From positions 1-45,632 of the IMG/VR virus record IMGVR_UViG_3300009180_000072: a stretch of DNA of 45,632 bases, one strand, 5' to 3'. The DNA is from a virus. Below, one piece after another: positions 27,649-29,002 of the stretch. The position numbers and the translations under genes are program-made. The notes under the pieces were generated by a model. The model was not told where the DNA came from. It saw only the letters and a program-made list of their open reading frames with translations, and made no database searches. Positions within the stretch are counted from its first letter, which is position 1, and every line of letters begins with the position of its first letter.

Positions 27649-27736
27649 GGTCGTCAGAACAGGTGTTCAGAGGGATCTTATAAGTCCTTTGCCCCAGATT
27701 AGGGCCTTTGGCAGGGTTCGATACCCTGGGCGACTA
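27649..27736 (+). tRNA. tRNA-like element of class II size (aberrant D arm)
   Basis: Acceptor GGTCGTC / GGCGACT pairs over 7 bp with two G-T pairs. The T arm CAGGG-TTCGATA-CCCTG is canonical. An anticodon-like arm GGGAT-CTTATAA-GTCCT presents TAT (Ile AUA) and there is a long variable region with GCCC..GGGC. The D arm is abnormal (AAC-AGGT-GTT, 4-base loop) and the anticodon stem can extend to 7 bp. It may be a degenerate or non-standard tRNA; identity is uncertain. Confidence 0.42.
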
Positions 27737-27766: not shown

Positions 27767-27840
27767 GCTCCTTTAGCTCTCTGGTTGAAAGCACCGAACT
27801 CATAATTCGGCTAAGGTCGGTTCGATCCCGACAAGGAGCA
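27767..27840 (+). tRNA. tRNA with CAT anticodon (Met or lysidine-modified Ile)
   Basis: A complete 74-base cloverleaf. Acceptor GCTCCTT / AAGGAGC (7 bp), D arm GCTC..AGC, anticodon stem CCGAA/TTCGG with loop CTCATAA, and T arm GTCGG-TTCGATC-CCGAC. Discriminator A; no encoded CCA. CAT could read AUG, or AUA if the C is converted to lysidine by host TilS; AUA would fit an AT-rich phage. Confidence 0.9.
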
Positions 27841-27841
27841 C

Positions 27842-27870
27842 TTGACTATTATGATTCTTTGAGTTATAAT
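27842..27870 (+). promoter_or_regulatory. sigma70-type promoter for tRNA-Leu
   Basis: TTGACT (27842-27847), 17-base spacer, TATAAT (27865-27870); the tRNA-Leu 5' end is 11 bases downstream. Confidence 0.72.
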
Positions 27871-27880
27871 AGTCTCACAA

Positions 27881-28163
27881 GCGAGTATGGTGGAATCGGT
27901 AGACACACCAGACTTATGAAAATTGAGCCTCATTTAGGAAACTTTATGAGTGTAATTCCTCAAATTCGGTGAAACCTGTAAAATGGCAATACCGAGCCAA
28001 GCAAGAGAAATCTTGAAGGTGTAGAGACTAGACGGGGAACACCTAAACCGAAAGGTATGGTGAAGGTATAGTCCAGACCACAAACCGAAAGGGTAGTGAA
28101 AACTATAGTGGTAAGAAAATCTGTTGGGCATTGCCCGTGGGAGTTCAAGTCTCCCTACTCGCA
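27881..28163 (+). tRNA. trnL-UAA: tRNA-Leu(UAA) split by a group I intron
   Basis: Exon 1 is 27881-27915 and exon 2 is 28116-28163 (83 bases joined). Acceptor GCGAGTA/TACTCGC is a perfect 7-bp pair with discriminator A. The D arm GTGGAATCGGTAGACAC is the standard tRNA-Leu form. Anticodon stem CCAGA/TCTGT has one C-T mismatch at the top. The joined loop CTT-AAAA gives anticodon TAA; the variable arm is GGGC-ATT-GCCC; T arm GGGAG-TTCAAGT-CTCCC. The intron lies between anticodon bases 34 and 35, the position of the ancient cyanobacterial/plastid tRNA-Leu intron. No CCA is encoded. Confidence 0.92.
27916..28115 (+). ncRNA. 200-base group I intron (cyanobacterial tRNA-Leu type)
   Basis: Self-splicing elements are visible. 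P1 joins exon CTT to GAG at 27925-27927, giving the U-G pair at the splice site. P2 CTCAT/ATGAG. P4 TTCGGT (27965-27970) with ACCGAG (27991-27996). P6 hairpin CAAGA-GAAA-TCTTG. P7 GACTA (28026-28030) with TAGTC (28069-28073). P8 CACC/GGTG with an inner ACC-GAAA-GGT. P9 ACCAC/GTGGT with TAGT-GAAA-ACTA. The last base is the required G (28115). Start AAAATTGAGCC and core GAGACTAGACGGG resemble the cyanobacterial tRNA-Leu intron. It has no internal ORF on the sense strand. Confidence 0.9.
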
Positions 28164-28211: not shown

Positions 28212-28676
28212 ATGGGAAAACCCAGAACTTACACTGATAATCAATTTATTGAAGCAGTAAAAACATCTACTAGCGTAAGACAAGTATTATCAAAACTTGG
28301 ATTAAAAGAAGCAGGTGGTAATTACAAAGTTGCCCAACAAAGAATAGAAAAACTTGGCATTAGTCTTGCTGATGGTGCTAATGGGCAAGGTTGGAGTAAA
28401 GGAAAAACACTTGGACCTAAAAGACCAATAGAATACTACTTAACTGAAAACTCTCATCATCAATCACATAAACTTAAAAAAAGATTAATTACAGAAGGTC
28501 TCAAAGAACATAAGTGTGAGTGCTGTGGTATATCTGAATGGAATAATCAACCAACACCTATAGAATTAGATCACATAAACGGCAACCATCACGATAATCG
28601 TTTAGAAAACCTTCGTATCCTGTGCCCCAATTGTCACGCACAGACTGATACTTATAGGGGTAAAAACAAAAAATAA
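28212..28676 (+). CDS. free-standing HNH endonuclease
   Basis: 154 residues. The N-terminal 55 residues form a helix-turn-helix-like DNA-reading part (TSVRQVLSKLGLKEAGGNY followed by QRIEKLGI). The C-terminal HNH domain has C102-x2-C105, D120-H121, N131-x-E/N region, and C138-x2-C141-H142 (ELDHINGNHHDNRLENLRIL), so all metal and catalytic positions are present. Such enzymes make site-specific DNA breaks and often act as homing endonucleases. It begins 48 bases after the intron-containing tRNA-Leu, outside the intron, and has its own late promoter. It may promote intron spread in trans or only its own. Confidence 0.85.
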   Translation: MGKPRTYTDNQFIEAVKTSTSVRQVLSKLGLKEAGGNYKVAQQRIEKLGISLADGANGQGWSKGKTLGPKRPIEYYLTENSHHQSHKLKKRLITEGLKEHKCECCGISEWNNQPTPIELDHINGNHHDNRLENLRILCPNCHAQTDTYRGKNKK

Positions 28677-28699: not shown

Positions 28700-29002
28700 A
28701 TGTCTTATCAAATCAGTCAAGCATACTGCTGGTATAATGAAGGTAGTATGATAGTCAAAATGTATTTCATAAATCAAGTTCCCTTTACATTTGATGAATT
28801 ACCAGACGGGCACTTATACGATAAAGAACTGTGTAAATTGGCAGACAAACAAAGATCATTTGAACCAGAAGATTTATTTAAGAACTCTTTCTATTTGATA
28901 GATGAGGAGGCACATCCACTATTATTTGAGATGGATTTAGAGAATCCACAAGACCTACCAGAAGACATTATGGAGTTTAATGGGGAGGATCTGACTAACT
29001 AA
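28700..29002 (+). CDS. acidic protein of unknown function
   Basis: 100 residues, MSYQISQAYCWYNEGSMIVKM.., with an acidic second half (FEPEDLF, DEEAHPLLFEMDLENPQDL). No motif recognised and no membrane segment. It is preceded by a weak late-type box and followed by the start of the S74 fibre gene. Could be an unassigned cyanophage-specific protein. Confidence 0.55.
   Translation: MSYQISQAYCWYNEGSMIVKMYFINQVPFTFDELPDGHLYDKELCKLADKQRSFEPEDLFKNSFYLIDEEAHPLLFEMDLENPQDLPEDIMEFNGEDLTN

Follow-up and report, generated by a model that had tools for sequence, protein, structure and literature searches.

A group I intron in the tRNA-Leu(UAA) gene of a T4-like cyanophage and its association with an HNH endonuclease gene

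Known systems and the cyanophage locus

The intron of tRNA-Leu(UAA) is a textbook case of an old intron that has been inherited mostly vertically. Its horizontal transfer has been argued by some authors, to go by a title cited in PMC3984707, and the available part of that paper states that phage group I introns tend to occur in conserved protein-coding genes. Collaborative homing has been described at the psbA gene of cyanophages (Zeng, Bonocora, and Shub 2009, as presented in parts of PMC3984707 and PMC10448857), and SegB provides an instance of phage tRNA clusters serving as targets of homing enzymes (PMC13096335, in part). Introns of this type, introns within protein genes of phages and the collaborative homing seen at psbA of cyanophages are, then, already known. 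In the part of the open-access literature covered, we found no report of a group I intron in a phage tRNA-Leu gene, nor of phages in which the tRNA-Leu(UAA) intron is a mobile element beside a nuclease gene.

The window, i.e., the whole stretch of DNA analysed (45,632 nucleotides), is the entire virus record IMGVR_UViG_3300009180_000072 and represents part of the genome of a T4-like cyanophage. Its gene set is of this kind and includes a single-strand binding protein (79–84% identical to those of P-SSM2, S-SKS1 and S-SRM01), a baseplate hub (up to 47% identity to that of S-SRM01), a tail tube protein and a helicase. A lytic lifestyle, assumed in the preliminary description of this DNA, would follow only from these T4-like genes. 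Long structural genes flank a small tRNA cluster that holds tRNA-Leu(UAA), with the following features:

27649–27736, + strand: tRNA-like gene with anticodon loop CTTATAA (UAU), a long variable arm and a very short D-loop (read by eye)
27767–27841, + strand: tRNA with a CAU anticodon (ARAGORN; Rfam tRNA, 53.4 bits)
27842–27870, + strand: promoter-like element ahead of tRNA-Leu, TTGACT-17-TATAAT (agrees with the consensus at 11 of 12 positions)
27881–27915, + strand: 5' exon of tRNA-Leu(UAA), ending at U34 (same letters in the intronless allele L345)
27916–28115, + strand: group I intron, 200 nt (Rfam, 62.1 bits; covariation; ORF list)
28116–28163, + strand: 3' exon of tRNA-Leu(UAA), starting at A35 (same letters in the intronless allele L345)
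28212–28676, + strand: HNH endonuclease of 154 aa encoded by a free-standing gene; putative homing enzyme of the tRNA-Leu site (PHROG 10822; linkage to UAA tRNAs)
28700–29002, + strand: gene M, conserved small gene of PHROG 4134 (marks the locus whether or not a phage has the HNH gene)

The tRNA-like gene at 27649–27736, whose D-loop has about 4 bases, received no ARAGORN call; its relatives on other viral contigs are called tRNA-Ile(tat) by ARAGORN, with lengths of 72–91 nt. An isoleucine anticodon together with a long variable arm is an odd combination. The promoter-like site overlaps an exact 9-base inverted repeat (27844–27852 and 27866–27874), and similar inverted repeats of other letters occur in viral contigs L345, L109 and L014. 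The region holds five promoter-like sites where 4.5 are expected, a count that is uninformative by itself.

Like the cyanobacterial tRNA-Leu(UAA) intron, the window intron lies in the same tRNA, directly after U34, and has a group I fold. In contrast to it, the window type is phage-borne, shorter (197–203 nt in 61 of the 77 viral copies described below), placed outside the cyanobacterial clade and sometimes found beside an endonuclease gene. The proteobacterial tRNA-Leu(UAA) introns (e.g., of Achromobacter and Rhodanobacter, among the matches listed) share the tRNA and the site but form a separate clade. With the psbA system, as far as described in the sources cited, the window shares a free-standing endonuclease beside an endonuclease-free intron, as well as the setting in cyanophages; it differs in that the target is a tRNA anticodon rather than a protein gene and in that cleavage is here a prediction. 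As a candidate homing enzyme that is free-standing and linked to tRNA genes of phages, the HNH protein resembles SegB of T-even phages. SegB, however, is a GIY-YIG enzyme with no intron and no favoured tRNA type, to the extent covered in PMC13096335, whereas the window enzyme is of the HNH type and its closest relatives adjoin UAA tRNAs.

Structure of the split tRNA-Leu(UAA) gene

The preliminary description, made from the letters of the window, had proposed that a group I intron of 200 nt interrupts tRNA-Leu(UAA) at the boundary of anticodon bases 34 and 35. This reading is confirmed by an Rfam search, by the fold of the exons and by an empty allele. The Rfam search, suggested there as a check, matched RF00028 (Intron_gpI) at positions 27906–28097 with 62.1 bits against a gathering threshold of 50 (E 1.7e-13). 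The joined exons fold into a class II tRNA with seven acceptor-stem, five T-stem and four of five anticodon-stem pairs; ARAGORN, run over the window, did not report this split gene. Viral contig L345 has the exact exon letters of the window, joined and without an intron, so that the junctions at 27915 and 28116 are fixed independently of any model. In this empty allele, too, the tRNA is preceded by a promoter-like stretch resembling that of the window, and a gene M relative (71%) lies downstream.

The intron begins after U34, its P1 helix consists of three pairs ending in U-G, and its last base is G. The pairings listed earlier and the terminal G were borne out, and P3, P5 and P7, which were missing from that list, are also present; the sequence thus has the U-G pair of P1 marking the 5' splice site, a P3–P8 core with the P3/P7 pseudoknot, and the terminal G of group I introns. 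The subgroup may be IC3; the window intron was aligned with bacterial tRNA-Leu introns. No open reading frame of 80 aa or more was found within the 200 nt of the intron in the ORF list.

In a covariation test of 18 phage introns with 52 named pairs, 99.4% of the 936 cells were paired and 25 of the 52 pairs were altered on both sides, a level of covariation reached by none of 500 shuffles; when the partners were slid, pairing dropped to 27–41%. Helices P1 and P6 are invariant and P4 and P7 nearly so, the three-pair guide being identical in all 18 introns; P2, P3, P8 and P9 covary, as does the anticodon stem of the tRNA. The fold of the window intron as a single sequence has a modest advantage over shuffled versions (z −2.43). 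These substitutions indicate that the structure of the intron is under selection and is kept by compensatory change. That the split gene is dead, yielding neither splicing nor a tRNA, appears extremely improbable given the compensatory changes in most helices including the anticodon stem, and a promoter-like site is in place. In the 200-nt ribozyme, the internal guide GAG would pair with CUU at the end of the exon; guanosine would then attack at 27915/27916, and U34 would be joined to A35, yielding a tRNA of 83 nt that reads UUA. The transcript is predicted to self-splice in this way in the cell. UUA is the most used leucine codon of the fragment, with 363 of the 973 leucine codons counted across 31 ORFs.

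Distribution, movement and origin of the intron

A pattern spanning the 5' exon and the start of the intron gave 107 matches in viral contigs, which comprise 77 complete intron-bearing tRNA-Leu genes, 20 intronless genes whose variable arm fitted the pattern, nine cut or unresolved cases and one spurious match (L042). Five of the 77 viral copies (L031, L032, L056, L098 and L102) have introns of the proteobacterial type, and these contigs may be prophage edges. The intron of L098 is identical to those of two Achromobacter genomes (L149 and L160). Among huge phages, LR756501 (735 kb) and LR756511 (595 kb) carry an intron in tRNA-Leu, as does the cultured Agrobacterium jumbo phage Atu_ph07; the word "intron" was not found in the available part of the text of the Atu_ph07 paper. 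Pelagibacter phage HTVC120P (L004) carries a related intron, 76.7% identical over the part matched, in its capsid gene, where it sits between two open reading frames that are each annotated as capsid protein.

An RF00028 search of 386 cyanobacterial genomes, in which at most five candidates per genome were scored, gave matches in at least 109 of them; the same genome search gave no match in the Achromobacter genome L149, although that genome is intron-bearing. At the gathering threshold, Rfam called no intron in L002, L003, L005, L307 and L449, though reading and alignment show one in each, so that Rfam alone undercounts these introns. With introns allowed, ARAGORN labelled several relatives as tRNA-Tyr or tRNA-Ser. 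Split phage tRNAs thus escape detection, being either unreported or misnamed by ARAGORN.

Phage tRNAs with a UAA anticodon differ in their bodies; in those of L242, L264, L270 and others the variable loop is short, which sets them apart from ordinary bacterial tRNA-Leu. One such tRNA(UAA) of a different body, with a short variable loop, is that of L449, whose intron is 99.5% identical to the intron of L071 while their exons are only 55.4% identical. Similarly, on the separate contigs L448, L450, L471 and L263, the introns are 95–96% identical to their nearest relatives and the exons 56–60%. Near-identical introns in unlike exons mean that the same intron entered different tRNA bodies at the same anticodon base, and the comparison indicates that the intron moves horizontally among phages. 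The suggestion of a phage-borne route for horizontal intron movement therefore holds among phages; movement between phages and cyanobacteria, or a link to the intron of a cyanobacterial host itself, was not seen in the trees and comparisons.

The relationship to the host introns was addressed with a quick tree and with a careful tree of 64 introns, which is unrooted and omits the long rows L205 and L135. In the careful tree, 18 cyanobacterial introns split off with support 100/100 and in all 200 bootstrap trees examined, although the bootstrap was not quite settled and the group tested was chosen after the first tree had been seen. Nesting of the window-type phage introns within the cyanobacterial crown gave a p-AU of 0.0038 on the careful tree and 0.06 on the quick tree. 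The phage introns do not form one clade and are placed between the cyanobacterial and the proteobacterial ones, with L045, L018, L039 and L310 weakly on the cyanobacterial side of the careful tree. The proteobacterial tRNA-Leu introns form a clade (100/100) that also holds L031, L032, a planctomycete MAG and the huge phage LR756511 (L003). The window intron shares its tRNA and site with the cyanobacterial introns and falls outside their clade.

Acquisition of the intron and the tRNA-Leu gene by the phage from its cyanobacterial host would account for the same tRNA, the same site and about 82% identity of the window-type intron to cyanobacterial introns over 190 aligned bases. We consider it very unlikely in view of the separate position of the cyanobacterial introns and the rejected nesting; in addition, the exons closely match intronless cyanophage tRNA-Leu, with 95.6% identity to that of S-TIM5. 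Host origin is disfavoured by the trees, and a recent capture from a cyanobacterial host is unlikely. Because the cyanobacterial introns stand apart and near-identical introns occur in unlike phage tRNA bodies, the most likely source of the window intron is another phage, which would largely answer the question, left undecided earlier, of whether it derives from the host or from a phage.

The HNH gene beside the intron

The HNH gene (28212–28676, 154 codons) starts 48 nt past the end of tRNA-Leu. Its product has an HNH domain by profile (PHROG 10822 HNH endonuclease, E 4.7e-47); the Pfam HNH_3 match (E 4e-4, 20.4 bits) is below the cut-off of 24.8. No GIY-YIG domain was found among the PHROG and Pfam matches listed, and a PDB sequence search with the protein gave no match. 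Comparison with L109 and L345 reveals the gene as a clean insertion between the tRNA and gene M, so alleles of one locus can be laid side by side: empty in L345, with intron only in L014 and L109, and with intron plus HNH gene in the window, L024 and L074. This layout, an endonuclease-free intron adjoining a free-standing endonuclease gene, fits a collaborative-homing pair.

Among the best 80 of 326 viral HNH relatives, 76 (including L238 and L272, both cut inside the intron) start about 40–80 nt past a tRNA with a UAA anticodon. In the remaining four, the relative lies antisense within a tRNA(UAA) intron (L307), just 5' of a UAA tRNA (L310), next to an opposite-strand tRNA-Leu(UAA) whose intron site is occupied by some 41 inserted bases (L311), or on a cut-off contig (L303). 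The L311 insert, too short for a group I intron, is perhaps a remnant. In the huge phage LR756511 (L003), an HNH relative (44% identity) resides inside the tRNA-Leu intron. The HNH tree, from which L303 was left out, with L311 unscored and the states of L238, L255, L272, L307, L308 and L310 set by eye, has 11 changes of intron state, of which eight are forced by well-supported branches. Three identical HNH proteins are found beside an intron-bearing tRNA in L252 and L253 and beside a quite different, intronless tRNA in L254. The cultured cyanophage S-CRM01 likewise possesses both a tRNA-Leu and an HNH gene.

At 16 of the 66 intron loci that could be evaluated, this HNH gene comes immediately after the interrupted tRNA-Leu; it does so after an uninterrupted window-type tRNA-Leu at none of 112 evaluable loci among the matches listed. 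These counts include near-copies and ignore shared ancestry. Loci were evaluable with at least 500 nt past the splice point, a limit that removed 16 short empty and six short intron loci, and the five proteobacterial-type loci (listed above) were excluded. A hand count, requiring at least 520 nt past the tRNA, gave 14 of 64 intron loci, and 11 of 47 with window-type exons. Gene M lies downstream in 43 of the 112 uninterrupted and 50 of the 66 intron loci, so both sets represent the same locus. Viewed from the nuclease, a window-type target is present in none of 58 HNH rows scored as intronless (two of them misassigned, L293 being another sequence and L307 not intronless) versus 13 of 16 intron-bearing rows that were read. 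Since 50 of the 66 evaluable intron loci lack this HNH gene and 58 of the 81 scored rows of the HNH tree have no intron, neither element needs the other.

A second sample was selected by gene M alone (best 80 of 347 loci, 76 evaluable). HNH matches were scored there at one of 11 empty window-type sites versus 17 of 65 others, a difference that is not significant in this small sample (Fisher p 0.44). The sole exception is another HNH gene between tRNA-Ile and tRNA-Met, which leaves 0 of 11, still few; in three of the 13 noncanonical HNH-scored loci (L442, L482 and L507) the HNH gene is elsewhere. On contig L455, another HNH gene adjoins tRNA-Ile(UAU), between tRNA-Ile and tRNA-Met, and several tRNA genes of the cluster may have a nuclease of their own.

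Collaborative homing at a tRNA anticodon, with the HNH enzyme as the homing partner of the intron, appears to us the best explanation of this linkage, and we hold it with moderate confidence, kept down because the exclusion between the HNH gene and the intact site rests on one biased sample. In a co-infecting phage, an uninterrupted tRNA-Leu(UAA) gene would most likely be cut by the HNH enzyme close to the intron site. Repair of the cut would copy the intron, the tRNA and the HNH gene together, and the carrier would be protected by the intron or by a changed tRNA sequence. Cleavage, its target and carrier protection are predictions.

Alternatively, the HNH gene could spread on its own as a free-standing homing gene of tRNA clusters, in the manner of SegB, and the intron would then be no partner but an old passenger carried along with the tRNA region. 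Such a role is known for SegB (PMC13096335, in part) and would agree with the many intronless HNH rows and HNH-less intron loci. The HNH gene also adjoins other intact UAA tRNAs, and a different HNH family follows an uninterrupted window-type tRNA in L484, with the same spacing in six more loci. Because that other family also occupies the slot after tRNA-Leu, the slot is a general hot spot, which speaks for self-spreading as well. Against this, the HNH gene never directly follows the uninterrupted window-type tRNA-Leu among the matches listed, and in LR756511 and L307 a relative of it is situated within the intron, making the self-spreading gene rather unlikely as the main account. By eye, HNH genes of another family occupy the same slot in L078, L087, L104 and L484, after interrupted and uninterrupted tRNA-Leu alike.

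The L449/L071 pair appears to count against collaborative homing, as these unlike exons would share too little sequence for ordinary repair. Movement mainly by reverse splicing of the intron RNA into the anticodon loop, with no endonuclease, would explain this pair and the similar cases in L448, L450, L471 and L263, where the exon homology would be too short for ordinary repair that does not replace the tRNA body; the constancy of the three-pair guide is also in its favour. However, this route would require reverse transcription and recombination, and the linked HNH gene is a simpler one in part of the cases, so we regard reverse splicing as the unlikely main path. Collaborative homing could be part of a wider pattern, which we put forward tentatively, as a doubtful extension: a mobile ribozyme-plus-nuclease module might target the UAA anticodon loop, enter unlike tRNA(UAA) bodies of either leucine shape or short variable loop, and drive tRNA(UAA) turnover in aquatic phages, whose carriers would escape the nuclease only with a split tRNA or an altered tRNA body.

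An intron of the kind long known from the same base is found here as a moving phage element, and one locus occurs in an empty, an intron-only and an intron-plus-nuclease state. Since all three allele states exist at that locus, tests of intron spread are practical within one phage group, and the mobile intron may explain why the tRNA(UAA) genes of these phages are so dissimilar.
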